A stretch of DNA of 64,000 nt. Source: Pseudomonas sp. ISL-84 (GTDB lineage Bacteria; Bacillota; Bacilli; Bacillales; Cytobacillaceae). Numbering within the stretch: position 1 is the stretch's first letter; each line of letters opens with the position of its first letter. Both the position numbers and the translations under genes were made by a program. The DNA lies in assembly GCA_018613035.1 (NCBI GenBank), contig JAGGRA010000014.1, forward strand, positions 25,613 to 89,612, written 5' to 3'. This document shows, piece by piece, positions 9,563-53,348 of the stretch. Under the pieces are notes generated by a model that did no database searches, had not been told where the DNA came from, and saw only the letters and a program-made list of their open reading frames with translations.

Positions 9563-10400
9563 CCCCATTCCCATGCTTTGTCTTTAACTCGGCATGCGCT
9601 TCTTGTACTATCGCATATGGCTGAAGCTTTAAAAGATTTTCTCCTTCTACTTTGCTGCCAGTCCAATGCAAATGAAGTAAAAATTCTATATTTCCGTCTC
9701 CACCCGTAATTGGCGAGAAAGATGCATCTCTCACATCAAATCCAAGCCCAAGCGAAAATTCAATAATTTTATCAAGTACTGATTCATGGACTTTCGGATC
9801 TCTGACGATACCCTTTTTCCCTACCTGTTCACGACCTGCCTCGAACTGTGGCTTAACAAGAGCCACCACATTACTTCCGGGTACCAGAAGTGTTTTGAGG
9901 ACGGGCAGAATCAATTTTAGCGAGATGAAAGAAACATCTATGGAAGCAAAGTCAGGCATCCCTGCTGTTAGGTCGGCTGGCGTTACATAGCGGAAGTTTG
10001 TCCTTTCCATGACCACTACCCGTTCATCCTGTCTTAACTTCCAGGCAAGCTGATTATAGCCTACATCCAGAGCGTAAGACATCTTTGCACCGTTTTGCAG
10101 CGCACAATCTGTAAAGCCGCCTGTGGAGGCACCAATATCAAGCAATATTTTTCCTTCCACATTTAAATCAAATTCCTTCAGGGCCTTTTCAAGCTTTAAC
10201 CCGCCGCGGCTGACATAAGGCATCACTTTCCCTTTTAAGGTTAAGGGAATATCAACACTTACTTTCTCGCCGGGCTTATCCAGTCGGCTTTCATTACTGA
10301 ATACAAGGCCAGCCATTACAGCTCTTTTGGCTTTTTCCCTTGTCTCAGCAAGCCCTCTTTCAACTAACAAAACGTCTACTCGTTCTTTCTTTGTTTTCAT
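9555..10400 (-). CDS. tlyA: TlyA-family rRNA 2'-O-methyltransferase (YqxC)
   Basis: 281 residues. An S4 RNA-binding domain (about 5-65, RVDVLLVERGLAETREKAKR) followed by a FtsJ-like methyltransferase domain with the SAM motif LLDIGASTGGFTDCAL (about 86-101) and IDVSFISL. In relatives it methylates ribosomal RNA; some members have been called hemolysins. It starts four bases after the dxs stop, so it is co-transcribed with dxs. Confidence 0.93.
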   Translation of the reverse strand: MKTKKERVDVLLVERGLAETREKAKRAVMAGLVFSNESRLDKPGEKVSVDIPLTLKGKVMPYVSRGGLKLEKALKEFDLNVEGKILLDIGASTGGFTDCALQNGAKMSYALDVGYNQLAWKLRQDERVVVMERTNFRYVTPADLTAGMPDFASIDVSFISLKLILPVLKTLLVPGSNVVALVKPQFEAGREQVGKKGIVRDPKVHESVLDKIIEFSLGLGFDVRDASFSPITGGDGNIEFLLHLHWTGSKVEGENLLKLQPYAIVQEAHAELKTKHGNGEE

Positions 10401-10403
10401 TCT

Positions 10404-12299
10404 TTAAGCCCTTTTTTGTTTTTTTCTTGCTAGTTTACCCATTCTTTCAACGACATCGTCTACTGTCATGCCGATTTCCTCTAATAGCTCTTTTACGCTT
10501 CCATGCTCGATAAATTTATCAGGTATGCCCATCCTGTCAATTTCAGCATGATGAAAGCCTTTTTCATGTGCATATTCAAGTACCGCACTTCCAAAACCGC
10601 CCTGCAGGACAGCTTCCTCTATTGTCAGGATTGGCATATTTACCGCGAGCAGATCCTTCAGGATTTTCTCATCGAGCGGCTTAATAAACCTTGCATTAAC
10701 CACTTTAATGGAATATCCCTGCTTTTCCAATAGCGAGGCAGCTTTTAAAGCCATAGGAATAGTTGTGCCAAAGGTTAGAATGGCTGCGTCATTTCCTTCA
10801 CGCAGAACCTCCCAGGTACCGATTGAAATCGTTTTAAGCTCATCATCCATTGGCACCCCAATGCCATTTCCCCGCGGAAAACGCATTGCGATTGGACCAT
10901 CATTATATTCAATAGCCGTTTTAACCATGTGCTGGCCTTCATTTTCATCTTTCGGCATCATTAGAACCATGTTCGGCAAATGCCTTAAGAAAGCTATATC
11001 AAAGACTCCCTGGTGGGTTTCCCCATCGGCTCCAACAAGTCCTGCGCGATCAATCCCAATAAATACATTCAAATTTTGACGCGCGATATCATGAACGACC
11101 TGATCATAGGCACGCTGCAGGAAGGTGGAATAGATAGCAAGGAACGGCTTCATATCTTGCGTAGCCAGCCCAGCAGCAACAGTGGCTGCATGTTGTTCTG
11201 CAATTCCTACATCATACATGCGATCAGGGAACTCGCCAGCAAAGCCCTCCAGCTTTGATCCAACTGGCATCGCAGGGGTAATGGCTACGATTCTTTCATC
11301 ATTTCTTGCCAGCTTCCTGACTGTCTCACTGACAAGCTTGCTCCAGGCAGGGGGTGGTGCACTGGCAGGTTTTACAAAGTCCCCTGTTTCCATTTTATAT
11401 GGGCCAGTACCATGCCATGTTCCAATCCGATCGCTTTCGGCAGGCTGATAGCCCTTTCCTTTTTTCGTGATTACATGGAGAAGAACCGGTCCTTCAGTCT
11501 TCTTCGCATAAGCTAAATTCTCAAATAAATCATCGTAATTATGACCATCTACTGGCCCCAAATATGTAAAGCCTAATTCCTCGAAGAACATTCCCGAAAC
11601 AAATAAATATTTCAGACTATCCTTTAGCCTTTCAGCTGTAGAAGCTAATTTCCCCCCCACTGCAGGTACTTTCTTTAAAAAATATTCAAGTTCATCTTTT
11701 ACCCAATTATATTTGCCAGCTGTCCTAAGTCTTCCCAGGACATTGTGCAACGCTCCAACATTTGGGGCAATAGACATTTCATTATCATTTAAAATAACAA
11801 TCATATTCTTGTTTTCATGGCCAATATGGTTTAAAGCCTCTAAAGCCATTCCGCCCGTTAATGCTCCGTCTCCAATGACTGGAATTACGTAATTATTCTC
11901 TTTTTTCAAGTCTCTTGCGATGGCCATTCCCATTGCGGCAGATAAGGATGTGGAGCTATGCCCCGTTTCCCAAACATCATGCTCGCTTTCAATCATCTTA
12001 GGGAAGCCGCAAAGACCTCTGTATTGCCTTAATGTATCAAATTGGCATGCACGGCCCGTTAATATTTTATGGACATAGGATTGGTGTCCGACGTCCCATA
12101 TAATTTTATCCTGGGGGCTGTCAAAGCATTTATGAAGTGCTATAGTTAGTTCCACGACACCCAGATTGGGGCCGATATGCCCACCGGTACCCGAAAGCTT
12201 TTCAATGAGGAATTCCCGGATATCCTGGCTTAGATTTTCAAGTTCTTTATTAGAGAGCCCCTTTAAAAAGGAAGGGTCTTTAATTGATAACAGATCCAT
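10404..12299 (-). CDS. dxs: 1-deoxy-D-xylulose-5-phosphate synthase
   Basis: 631 residues from the ATG at 12299 ([15 protein letters not shown], the conserved start); a GTG four codons upstream touches the oapA stop and is less likely. Thiamine-diphosphate enzyme: [18 protein letters not shown] with the conserved ND in [16 protein letters not shown], a central domain with [15 protein letters not shown], and a C-terminal transketolase domain. It makes DXP from pyruvate and glyceraldehyde-3-phosphate, the first step of the MEP isoprenoid pathway; ispA upstream acts later in the same pathway. Transcription probably starts ahead of oapA. Confidence 0.97.
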
Positions 12300-12311
12300 T
12301 CTGCGGACCAC

Positions 12312-12929
12312 TCACTTTCGTCTCTTATTCGTCCGTTGTTTTAATTTCATTTTTTTCTTGTCTTTTATTATAACAATATGGAATTTATCCTCAAGGAAAT
12401 GCAGAACTTTTCCTACCTGGAAGATAATATCTTTAGAGTACCTTATTGCTAGCGATTTTCCAAATGCTTTTCCACCCACGGTCATCGCAGCAATAATGCT
12501 TGTTATGATAACCGAAGAAGCATATTCAAATAGGCTGCTGTCATTCATCTGAAATGAGACAGTTAGCTGCACAATAACAATTGCAGCCGCTGCACCGCTG
12601 ATAATGCCAGAAATATCACCAATTACATCATTGCAAAAACTGGCGAACCGGTCGGCATTTCTAACGATGCGAATCGAATGCCTGGCTCCAAAAACTTTAT
12701 TTGAGGCCATAGAATGAAAAGGCACTTCATCTGCAGCAGTGGCAGCAATTCCTATCATATCAAAAAAAATGCCGATTAAAACAATAAATCCAACAACAAT
12801 CAGCCCAGTTCCCCATGATACACCGTTCAATATGGAGTTTGAAATAATTGAAAAAAGAGCCGCTAGCACAAAAGTGATAACGGCAATACTGAAGCTCCAT
12901 TTAATCGAATTCCGCAGCAACTCTCTCAT
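12312..12929 (-). CDS. oapA: OLE RNA-associated membrane protein OapA
   Basis: 205 residues with four predicted membrane segments (about 10-32, 40-62, 104-125 and 137-155), a polar loop between the second and third (about 65-100) and a very basic tail (KDKKKMKLKQRTNKRRK). The position between dxs and a 650-nt gene-free structured region, downstream of ispA, is that of OapA, the partner that holds OLE RNA at the membrane in Bacillus halodurans. The basic tail and loop suit RNA contact (inference). The stop lies 12 bases before the dxs ATG. Identification rests on context, size and topology rather than a search. Confidence 0.87.
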   Translation of the reverse strand: MRELLRNSIKWSFSIAVITFVLAALFSIISNSILNGVSWGTGLIVVGFIVLIGIFFDMIGIAATAADEVPFHSMASNKVFGARHSIRIVRNADRFASFCNDVIGDISGIISGAAAAIVIVQLTVSFQMNDSSLFEYASSVIITSIIAAMTVGGKAFGKSLAIRYSKDIIFQVGKVLHFLEDKFHIVIIKDKKKMKLKQRTNKRRK

Positions 12930-12962
12930 TTCTGTAAAAACTTCCTTTTTAATCTAAGAATG

Positions 12963-13037
12963 AAAAGAGGCGGAGCTCGCCGGTTTTTCGGGAATTGAAT
13001 TCCGCTCGTTCAGCTTCAGCAAGTTCTTCGCCTCTTT
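12963..13037 (-). promoter_or_regulatory. Long hairpin in the oapA leader
   Basis: On the minus strand AAAGAGGCG and CGCCTCTTT close a stem around a 50-base interior that itself holds the near-palindrome CGGAATTCAATTCCCG; TTC follows. It lies 35 bases before the oapA start. It could be an attenuator, a processing site after OLE, or an inserted repeat. Confidence 0.45.
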
Positions 13038-13047
13038 ATTTGTGCTT

Positions 13048-13078
13048 ATTATGCTATAATCACTCGGCAACCTGTCAA
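13048..13078 (-). promoter_or_regulatory. Candidate promoter between OLE and oapA
   Basis: Minus strand TTGACA (13078-13073, perfect -35) followed by either TAGCAT at 16-bp spacing or CATAAT at 19 bp. It would serve oapA-dxs-tlyA independently of OLE transcription. Confidence 0.5.
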
Positions 13079-13079
13079 T

Positions 13080-13735
13080 AAAAACACATATATATGTACG
13101 AGAGGGGCAAACCCCTCAAAAACTCGAAAAGTGGATGGCCATACAAAGGGTTAAGATTGCGGCTTAGGTCCAGTAGGTTTTCCCAAGCGAATACCGGATG
13201 TCGCCATACCGGCGGTTTCCCTTTAAATCCGCCTTAGCCGTGTCGCCACCAGCTAGACTGGATTGCCACTTAGTCCGCACTATAATCCCCTTTATATGTC
13301 ATTGGAACAGTCTAGGAGATTTCCTCAGCAGCCCTTAAACCATTTCCCTAGCCTCTTTTGCAAAGAAGATTTCATACAGGCGAAAAAGCATATATCAATG
13401 GCCAACTGATGTATGCCCTTATAACTGTAATCCCCTCTATCTTCACTCAAGGCAGGCTACGCTGCTAGTGATCTCCCATGGGACCACATTGCAGGTTCAT
13501 AACCCGAGACCTTAGGCCGTAAGCTTTCGCTCTAGGCTGATCATCGGGGCCTCCGCGGTGAAAGGGTCAACGCCCACATGCCTTTGCAGATCGCCCTTAC
13601 ACCTTACTCCCTGAATCGACCCAAGGCTGGGCGCCTCAAGCCAAAACAAGGAACTTCATCGATGTGCCCTTTAGTGGATTTTTAGCCCCACCTTCAGGAA
13701 TGGTAGACCGACTAGAATACTGCACCATCCATATA
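13080..13735 (-). ncRNA. ole: OLE RNA (ornate, large, extremophilic)
   Basis: A gene-free stretch of about 650 bases between ispA and oapA, GC-richer than other spacers here and full of pairing blocks, transcribed on the minus strand with its neighbours. Size, strand and position (ispA, RNA, oapA, dxs) are those of OLE RNA in alkaliphilic bacilli, a highly structured RNA that binds OapA and sits at the membrane. An extended -10 promoter lies at its 5' end. At the 3' end the hairpin GAGGGG-TTTG-CCCCTC (13117-13102) and the palindrome ACATATATATGT followed by GTTTTTATT (to 13077) look like an ending. Exact ends are estimates; covariance-model scoring would confirm it. Confidence 0.87.
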
Positions 13736-13740
13736 TACCT

Positions 13741-13769
13741 ATTATACCATATTTGCGATTGTGCAACAA
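13741..13769 (-). promoter_or_regulatory. Promoter of OLE RNA
   Basis: Minus strand TTGTTG (13769-13764), 17 bases, then TGG-TATAAT (-10 at 13746-13741), an extended -10 sigma-A promoter lying within 50 bases of the ispA stop. Start site expected near 13735. Confidence 0.75.
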
Positions 13770-13788
13770 TCTGCCCATGCCCCGCCTC

Positions 13789-14682
13789 TTAATGATCCCT
13801 GCTGGCTACTAAATCGGTTATTGCCTCAAGCAGCTCCGTTTTTAATCCTGTTTCTTTCAATTTTTCCTTGGCAGATTTTATGTGACGATCGAGTGCTTCT
13901 TTGGCTCCCTCCATTGTAAGAAGGGAAGGGTAGGTACTTTTATTTTTTGACTCATCGCTGCCAATAGGCTTTCCAATCTTCTCTTCTGTTCCTTCAAGAT
14001 CGAGAATATCATCTCTGATTTGAAAAGCCAGTCCCAAATGGTAGGCAAAATTGGATAATGCTTGAATGGTTTTCTGATTGGCTTTTGCTAAAATGGCACC
14101 TGAAACAACACTGCACTTCAAGAGCTTGCCTGTTTTGTGCAAGTGGATGTATTCAAGATCTTCCAAAGACAATTGCTGCCCTTCACCATTAATATCTGCT
14201 ACCTGTCCTCCAACCATTCCCTCTGCTCCTGAAGCTTTGGACAGTTCCTTAATTAAAGAAAGTTTTATCTCAGCTGAAGCAAATTCGTCCGGCGTTTCGG
14301 CGACTAATTGGAAGCTATATGTCAGCAGGGCATCTCCAGCCAGAATAGCAAAGGCTTCTCCAAAAATTTTATGATTCGTTGGCTTGCCTCGCCTCAAATC
14401 ATCATCATCCATGCTCGGGAGGTCATCATGTATAAGCGAATATGTATGCACCATCTCAATTGCTGCTGCCGTCCACAAACCTTTAATAGTATCCTCCTCA
14501 AATGCAGCCAAGGATGCGAATAACAGCAATGGCCTAATGCGCTTGCCTCCTGCCTCAAGAGAATAAAGCATTGATTCTTTTACGGCAGAAGGAGCATTCA
14601 ATTTGTTGACGCTTTCCTTTAGCTGATTTTCCAGCATTTGTTTATGATGTTCAGAAAAAGAAACCAAGGATTGTTGCAGCAA
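13789..14682 (-). CDS. ispA: Farnesyl diphosphate synthase (geranyltranstransferase)
   Basis: 297 residues, all-alpha prenyl synthase. First aspartate-rich motif in SLIHDDLPSMDDDDLRRG (about 81-98) and second in FQIRDDILD (about 223-231). It condenses IPP with DMAPP/GPP to give farnesyl diphosphate. Two bases separate it from xseB, so xseA-xseB-ispA form one operon, ahead of OLE. The GAGGAAT ribosome site lies in the end of xseB. Confidence 0.96.
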   Translation of the reverse strand: MLQQSLVSFSEHHKQMLENQLKESVNKLNAPSAVKESMLYSLEAGGKRIRPLLLFASLAAFEEDTIKGLWTAAAIEMVHTYSLIHDDLPSMDDDDLRRGKPTNHKIFGEAFAILAGDALLTYSFQLVAETPDEFASAEIKLSLIKELSKASGAEGMVGGQVADINGEGQQLSLEDLEYIHLHKTGKLLKCSVVSGAILAKANQKTIQALSNFAYHLGLAFQIRDDILDLEGTEEKIGKPIGSDESKNKSTYPSLLTMEGAKEALDRHIKSAKEKLKETGLKTELLEAITDLVASRDH

Positions 14683-14684
14683 TG

Positions 14685-14918
14685 TTATTCCTCCTCAGGA
14701 ATGGCGAAGTTTTCTTTACGGCCATCCTCCGTCAGTATTTCTGTAAGCTGTGTTTCAACATTCTTCAATTTGTCATGGCATAGTTTTGAAAGCTCCATGC
14801 CCTGCTTGTAAATATTAATTGCTTCTTCAAGGGGGACATCTCCTTCTTCAAGCTTTTCGACAATAACCTCAAGCTGGTCCATTGCCTCTTCAAATGTAAG
14901 CTTTTTTTCATCCGCCAT
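14685..14918 (-). CDS. xseB: Exodeoxyribonuclease VII small subunit
   Basis: 77 residues from the ATG at 14918 ([16 protein letters not shown]), chosen because GAGGAG at the end of xseA lies eight bases upstream; a GTG three codons earlier overlaps that site. Short helical hairpin protein with the family pattern [19 protein letters not shown]. It forms the stalk of exonuclease VII with XseA. The start sits six bases after the xseA stop. Confidence 0.95.
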
Positions 14919-53276: not shown

Positions 53277-53348
53277 TGGGCTATAGCCAAGCGGTAAGGC
53301 AACGGACTTTGACTCCGTCATGCGTAGGTTCGAATCCTGCTAGCCCAG
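53277..53348 (+). tRNA. trnQ: tRNA-Gln (anticodon TTG)
   Basis: 72 nt cloverleaf. Acceptor TGGGCTA / TAGCCCA with discriminator G, D-arm GCCAAGCGGTAAGGC, anticodon stem ACGGA-CTTTGAC-TCCGT with TTG, and T-arm GTAGGTTCGAATCCTGC. No encoded CCA. It stands alone, divergent from comGA. Confidence 0.97.

Follow-up and report, generated by a model that had tools for sequence, protein, structure and literature searches.

Where does a polymerase stop after transcribing an OLE RNA gene that is followed, on the same strand, by oapA and then by dxs? The question is raised by a locus in the window, i.e. the whole stretch of 64,000 nucleotides that was analysed from a contig of Pseudomonas sp. ISL-84 (placed among the Cytobacillaceae in GTDB and, going by its named relatives, a member of Cytobacillus), whose minus strand over 14682-10404 carries ispA, OLE, oapA and dxs, as the first-pass annotation had described. 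The upstream neighbour ispA encodes farnesyl diphosphate synthase (13789..14682, minus strand; NF045485, 442.7 bits), and the downstream neighbour is dxs (10404..12311, minus strand; TIGR00204, 957.2 bits). Sequence comparison points, with a probability of about 0.8, to a locus consisting of a full-length OLE gene and its likely partner oapA, in which oapA codons 16-27 double as a conserved hairpin and T tract, a predicted intrinsic terminator for the polymerase leaving ole.

The OLE gene occupies 13744..13119 on the minus strand and matches the Rfam covariance model RF01071 over its complete length (model positions 1-616) with 503.4 bits and an E-value of 1.1e-144, well above the gathering score of 50 bits. 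An OLE RNA between ispA and oapA had been proposed in the first-pass annotation, together with this covariance score as a means of checking it, and the full-length match bears the proposal out. The extent given there held in part: OLE lies in the region, its matched 626 nt end at about 13119, and the outer end at 13769 takes in the promoter. That promoter, predicted at 13741..13769 (minus strand), had been read as TTGTTG-N17-TATAAT with an extended -10, and the sequence is indeed present, with TTGTTG at 13769-13764, a 17-nt spacer, TATAAT at 13746-13741 and TGG as the extended -10; it is a consensus match with a predicted start, its -10 box overlaps the very beginning of the RF01071 match, and TTGTTG is visible in 5/5 OLE-bearing Cytobacillus genomes.

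One OLE copy was found genome-wide, and none in the control genomes (0/14). The OLE of the window is 95–98% identical to four other Cytobacillus OLEs, compared with 72–79% identity for the flanking intergenic windows in the distant pairs G000-G023 and G000-G031, which indicates strong purifying selection on OLE. Its P9 loop contains, by sequence position, TTGGCCA at 13399..13405 (minus strand), and the GGCC palindrome inside it forms the dimer kissing loop (bridge B3) of OLE according to the accessible part of PMC12286853. The gene is thus a further, full-length example of an already known RNA class. Two L7Ae-family proteins are encoded in the genome, and OapC (L7Ae-type, YbxF) would be among such proteins. 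Elsewhere in the window, a glycine riboswitch aptamer (45620-45532, minus strand; 75 bits) and a lone tRNA-Gln with a TTG anticodon (53277-53348, plus strand) were observed.

The reading frame at 12312..12929 (minus strand) encodes a membrane protein of 205 amino acids that was assigned as OapA from its hydropathy, its charge, a weak CNNM match and its co-occurrence with OLE. Hydrophobic segments at residues 12–30, 43–61, 102–120 and 133–151, and a basic tail with 13 K/R versus 3 D/E among the C-terminal 35 residues, agree at the level of hydropathy and charge with the earlier description of a four-segment basic membrane protein. Membership of another family, which had been named as the finding that would speak against OapA, is not indicated: Pfam returned the CNNM domain alone (PF01595, 20.9 bits, below the cut-off of 28.4), NCBIfam returned no family, and a distant sub-threshold CNNM similarity is what has been published for OapA (PMC11332333, accessible part). 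Furthermore, OLE and OapA were found in the same 5/36 congeners. The protein is therefore likely to be OapA, the membrane partner of OLE, whose binding to the RNA has been published for Halalkalibacterium halodurans (PMC12265935, in the text available).

The genes ole and oapA lie 189 nt apart in the window. Inside oapA, in the codons of the first membrane helix (16–27), sits a hairpin followed by a T tract, together having the shape of an intrinsic terminator, an element that the first-pass annotation had not mentioned. The hairpin, GCCGTTATCAC-TTTT-GTGCTAGCGGC, was defined by folding and comparison and covers codons 16–24 (12859..12884, minus strand); the T tract TCTTTTTT, seen in the sequence and in the folding, follows directly 3' within codons 24–27 (12851..12858, minus strand). 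The hairpin with its tail has a folding energy of -14.3 kcal/mol (z -6.0), and 0/200 shuffles were as stable. It was the comparison of decayed with intact oapA that first pointed to codons 16–27; a generic terminator scan of the region did not list the hairpin, because a one-base central mismatch splits its stem.

The same element recurs in a collection of oapA genes from 69 genera and from named loci. The first helix is spelled GCC GTT ATC (or ACC) ACN YTN GTG YTR GCG GCN NTT TTT in 109/115 rows; five of the other six rows lack this spelling and one (L208) is misaligned. As RNA, the hairpin reads GCCGTTATCAC-NYTN-GTGYTAGCGGC, followed by the T tract. The in-ORF segment passed a terminator scan in 101/110 loci, versus 5/110 for a control segment of oapA.

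A conventional short-loop terminator was sought in 103 loci in the stretch from the end of OLE to the in-ORF hairpin, which starts at a median of 87 nt (59–160) 3' of OLE; twelve rows, including five of Cytobacillus with the window among them, stood outside this survey. A terminator-like hairpin was found only in the ORF in 98 loci and only in the intergenic region in five, with no locus having both and none having neither. The stretches scanned differed in length, so the survey was repeated in equal windows (-25 to +59 relative to the OLE end), where a short-loop terminator was present in 0/98 hairpin-bearing and 5/5 hairpin-less loci. The corresponding Fisher probability of 1e-8 is overstated, since the loci are related (L211 and L277 represent one genus). 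The intergenic hairpin of the latter two has a poor T tract.

Nineteen OLE-bearing genomes missed a looser form of the hairpin pattern; three were already covered, and the remaining 16, two of which were already among the 103 loci, were followed up. A variant in-ORF hairpin only was found in nine and an intergenic stop only in five, with one genome having neither (G518) and one being unscorable (G494). The stop lies outside oapA in genera g48, g51, g129 and g137 and in Anoxynatronum buryatiense (L122), which we take to belong to the Clostridia. The OLE-bearing G494 (L333, genus g140) has an OapA of only 42% identity whose first helix misfits the alignment, and blastn did not find an OLE end beside its oapA.

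These positions bear on the possibility that selection favoured the terminator as a barrier shielding dxs from the operon upstream rather than as the end of OLE, OLE being excised from a long polycistronic RNA. Indeed, dxs lies 3' of oapA in 89/94 OLE loci, the hairpin persists between ispA and dxs in species lacking OLE, and the accessible text of PMC9723947 places OLE in a large operon that is 'presumably posttranscriptionally processed'. Lineages without the in-ORF hairpin, however, place a terminator-like hairpin in front of oapA, directly after OLE, and dxs is still downstream in L211, L277, L261 and L266 at least, so that the constant feature is a stop after OLE. Insulation of dxs as the selected role is accordingly regarded as possible, though on the unlikely side; ending OLE and insulating dxs are mutually compatible roles and do not exclude each other.

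The Cytobacillus group is probably an exception to the single-stop pattern, having both stops. No short-loop terminator was found after OLE in equal windows of the five OLE-bearing genomes. The gap between ole and oapA holds instead, from folding and comparison, a long-loop hairpin at 12964..13037 (minus strand) with a 9-bp basal stem AAAGAGGCG/CGCCTCTTT followed by TCATTCTT. The region 12955-13050 folds with -28.2 kcal/mol (z -3.3), and sequence resembling the hairpin is present in all five genomes. Modelled in this way, it is a possible additional terminator and, because it sits between OLE and oapA, the window probably carries two stop signals in tandem. A long-loop scan found such an upstream hairpin in 1/104 loci (L218) and in the window.

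The in-ORF hairpin is not confined to OLE loci. In a sample of the order, OLE was found in 225/397 genomes and 87/135 genera under stricter filters, and the exact pattern GCCGTTATCACN{3,6}GTGYTRGCGGC was present in 254/397 genomes, i.e. in 204/225 with and 50/172 without OLE (reversed control, 0). The OLE-negative status rests on these stricter filters, by which weak matches are lost, and some of the 50, being in OLE-rich genera, may represent missed OLEs. In the class, the strict pattern occurred in 18/38 genomes of the order and in 4/360 genomes elsewhere (reversed control, 0). The loose pattern (284/397 genomes) was dropped as a measure in favour of the exact one, its reversed control matching in 110 genomes.

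Among 20 OLE-less matches to the loose pattern, picked for matching arms, 19 lay between ispA and dxs and one directly 5' of dxs at a contig edge; no oapA was found within the 3 kb searched near each. The hairpin was also present in 11/14 named OLE-less loci (Neobacillus, Bacillus, Robertmurraya, Fredinandcohnia) and absent from 3/14 (Cytobacillus citreus, Mesobacillus maritimus, Jeotgalibacillus soli). Across 33 OLE-less junctions the match to oapA consisted mostly of the hairpin and T tract, some matches reaching a few dozen bases upstream; when the hairpin was masked, J. soli (L096, E 7e-9) was the only junction still matching, with Robertmurraya (L081, E 0.075) as a doubtful second. The best reading of these junctions is that the predicted terminator outlives oapA between ispA and dxs.

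The same data could be read in the opposite direction, the terminator predating oapA here, with ole-oapA inserted upstream of an ispA/dxs terminator and the ORF extended over the hairpin. Many OLE-less genera have the hairpin as a stand-alone copy, and nearly all of those examined are without oapA homology outside the hairpin, as such a history would have it. Against it, the helix whose codons include the hairpin aligns with OapA of A. buryatiense, itself hairpin-less, and other remnants of oapA are seen at OLE-less junctions in Cytobacillus and in J. soli; an older terminator is thus considered unlikely. Less likely still is a hairpin that serves in the oapA mRNA not as a terminator but as an autoregulatory binding site for OapA, OLE or another partner. 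OapA reportedly binds palindromes within OLE (PMC12265935, in the text available), but the hairpin is kept in 31 examined loci where OLE and oapA were not found, each time with a T-rich tail (weakest in L296/L305).

The argument for a terminator overprinted on oapA depends further on how its codons are conserved. Synonymous information was calculated for 88 oapA genes, obtained by thinning 110 rows to <90% nucleotide identity. It reached 2.35, 2.19, 2.02, 1.95 and 1.40 bits at stem codons 21, 16, 23, 18 and 17, compared with 0.02 and 0.14 bits at loop codons 19 and 20 and a median of 0.06 for an oapA codon. Some scores are inflated by the two codon boxes of Ser, and Ser columns were therefore set aside in a retest; the top five of 178 codons were then exactly the stem codons 16, 17, 18, 21 and 23. 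In the dxs control from 73 of the same loci, the best of 256 codons had 0.49 bits. In a comparison of G000, G015, G016, G023 and G031, the synonymous divergence (dS) of distant pairs is roughly twofold lower in oapA than in its neighbours (0.48 versus 1.2–1.5 for G000-G031), and in G015-G016 the two are equal; the hairpin can account for only part of this low value.

Pairing was counted in 119 hairpin-bearing rows, with hairpin-less rows set aside. Ten of the 11 stem positions are paired in 118–119 rows, and base changes that keep the pairs comprise C-G to U-G, U-G to C-G, U-A to U-G and A-U to G-U. Position 8/19 is paired in 0/119 rows and its mismatch varies, as do three of the four loop positions (12, 13 and 15). 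Among 38 distinct hairpins, comprising intact, stand-alone and fossil ones, 96.3% of cells pair versus 93.9% in shuffles; changes on both sides occur at one pair only and are confined to the decayed Cytobacillus clade, in which two other pairs fail in six rows. Strict covariation is thin because the stem hardly varies, and the structure is backed more by selective freezing of its sequence than by covariation.

Residues 17 and 21 of OapA are V in 118 and 119, respectively, of the 119 hairpin-bearing rows, whereas in five hairpin-less rows residue 17 is F or I and residue 21 is I or F. The RNA element may therefore even dictate amino acids. It is hardly credible that wobble conservation reflects codon bias or the protein constraint of a membrane helix only: the amino acids are conserved too, but the conserved T19 and F/L20 codons vary freely at the wobble base, GTG, GCC and GCG are nearly fixed despite four codons per amino acid, the dxs control stays far below the stem codons, and residues 17 and 21 differ in the five hairpin-less rows, although L318, hairpin-less, retains V17.

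The fate of the predicted terminator after loss of OLE can be followed within Cytobacillus. The locus of the window is found again in two records of Cytobacillus oceanisediminis and in Bacillus sp. J33, and OLE is present in 5/36 genomes of the genus and 6/193 of the family. Stretches of 15 kb around ispA were compared across the 36 congeners. The gap between ispA and dxs measures 1480–1483 nt in the five OLE-bearing genomes, 315–593 nt in 15 genomes and 99–261 nt in 16. A search with a nucleotide model built from the five intact copies of oapA recovered a decayed oapA in 15/15 mid-gap genomes (E 7e-18 to 1e-9) and weaker scraps of its 3' end in ten of the 16 short-gap genomes (E 5e-7 to 0.009); a separate search with the oapA model of 620 shuffled junctions gave nothing with E <2.4. 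In a larger search of 31 whole stretches E-values rise and five of the 16 short-gap genomes stay below 0.01, all matches with E <0.5 falling in the ispA-dxs junction. No OLE remnants were found in the junctions of OLE-less congeners with a nucleotide model of the OLE part.

In a tree built from eight genes flanking the locus and rooted among the 16 short-gap genomes, the five OLE-bearing genomes form one clade (99) that is sister to the 15 fossil species (support 100; G017, G032, G028, G020, G018, G021, G009, G034, G027, G026, G005, G007, G025, G006 and G008; L046-L060). The series of gaps, the remnants and the tree together make it most likely that OLE was present in the ancestor of at least this joint clade and was lost toward the 15 fossil species. 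Among the OLE-bearing genomes OapA is 94–99% identical, versus 81–92% for IspA, which had suggested horizontal transfer of an ole-oapA cassette. This was rejected, since the intergenic DNA of the cassette has diverged as far as its surroundings (72–79% in distant pairs) and the single OLE-bearing clade with its fossil sister also opposes it. A gain of MpfA compensating for the loss of OLE found no support in this genus, above-cut-off matches to the CNNM domain alone numbering 3–4 in the 15 fossil genomes and 3–4 in the five with OLE.

Substitution in the fossil junction amounts to 0.76 changes per site, versus 1.62 for four-fold sites, and is slow in two blocks, one at the hairpin and one at the oapA-derived GAAAAGCATTTGGAAAATC; the T tract of the fossil hairpin is largely gone. 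A frame-shifted micro-ORF of about 29 codons was seen by eye to run through the GAAAAGCATTTGGAAAATC block.

The 3' end of oapA contains a promoter-like TTGAGG-N16-TATAAT with TG at 12367..12394 (minus strand), a consensus match that may, on weak grounds, be a dxs promoter. The site is equalled by 2–3/20 shuffles, and its support comes from retention in OLE-less congeners, the matching stretch of oapA being the remnant kept by some deeper OLE-less Cytobacillus. Across 10300-14800, seven promoter-like sites were counted versus 8.5 in shuffles. The idea that oapA genes in general carry a dxs promoter near their 3' end was rejected as weakly supported (score ≥10 in 25/88 genes versus 12.6% of synonymous shuffles). 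In J. soli (L096), TTGAGG-N16-TATAAT was observed 5' of dxs.

A terminator within oapA would work as follows. The ole promoter would fire and most polymerases would halt at the T tract in oapA, the frequent halt leaving an excess of OLE over OapA; the RNA 3' of OLE would then be trimmed off to give mature OLE. The read-through fraction would provide OapA mRNA, possibly running on into dxs. A full-length oapA mRNA would need such read-through, because a promoter 3' of the hairpin cannot yield a complete ORF. After loss of OLE the hairpin would be retained because it would still shield dxs from transcription of ispA. Coupled ribosomes in E. coli keep hairpins of this kind from acting (PMC5021804, accessible part), and by analogy ribosomes translating oapA could block this one. 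In B. subtilis and others where the polymerase outruns ribosomes, a terminator inside a translated gene could work, to judge from the available portion of PMC13323073, which concerns Rho.

A wider proposal is put forward tentatively, as possible but less likely than not: that oapA attenuates itself, the terminator written over its first membrane helix across the Bacillus order setting the OLE:OapA ratio and coupling both to dxs. One read-through decision, sensitive to how transcription and translation are running (in cold, alcohol or poor carbon), might then govern OLE, OapA and entry into isoprenoid synthesis, and after loss of OLE the gene would erode to its regulatory core.

No description of a terminator within oapA was found in the OLE, terminator and dxs literature searched, which consisted largely of papers outside subscription, and within that literature the element appears not to have been described before; OLE itself is known. 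The prediction lends itself to direct and cheap testing by synonymous codons. Deletions of oapA or of ole-oapA are among the main genetic tools used to study OLE; they would also take out the predicted terminator, with possible effects on dxs transcription, and some ole/oapA knockout phenotypes may therefore need a control for dxs. Furthermore, successive stages can be compared within the single genus Cytobacillus, from five species with OLE and OapA, through their 15 sister species, in which OLE is absent and oapA is dead, to deeper species of which at least five hold a credible 3' scrap of oapA.

The locus is similar to the OLE-OapA system of H. halodurans in having a full-length RNA with oapA directly 3' and dxs adjoining, a predicted promoter of its own and GGCC in the P9 loop. 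It differs in the 189 nt between ole and oapA and in the extra hairpin that this gap holds; the in-ORF hairpin starts as little as 67–147 nt after OLE in ten named loci from other genera, and no H. halodurans record was recognised among the loci. A further difference from published OLE systems is that OLE-bearing Cytobacillus have 3–4 full CNNM-domain (MpfA-type) proteins, contrary to the tendency of OLE carriers toward none or one MpfA, an anticorrelation reported in the accessible part of PMC11332333. With intrinsic (Rho-independent) terminators the in-oapA hairpin shares a GC-rich stem, a 4-nt loop and a T tract on the coding strand, but it lies within the coding sequence of a conserved gene, whose codons there are nearly fixed. 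Unlike leader transcription attenuators, for which a leader peptide or ligand sensor would be expected and none was identified here, the predicted terminator lies within a structural gene; it is similar to them in being placed between a promoter and most of the coding sequence, with an output that would depend on read-through.
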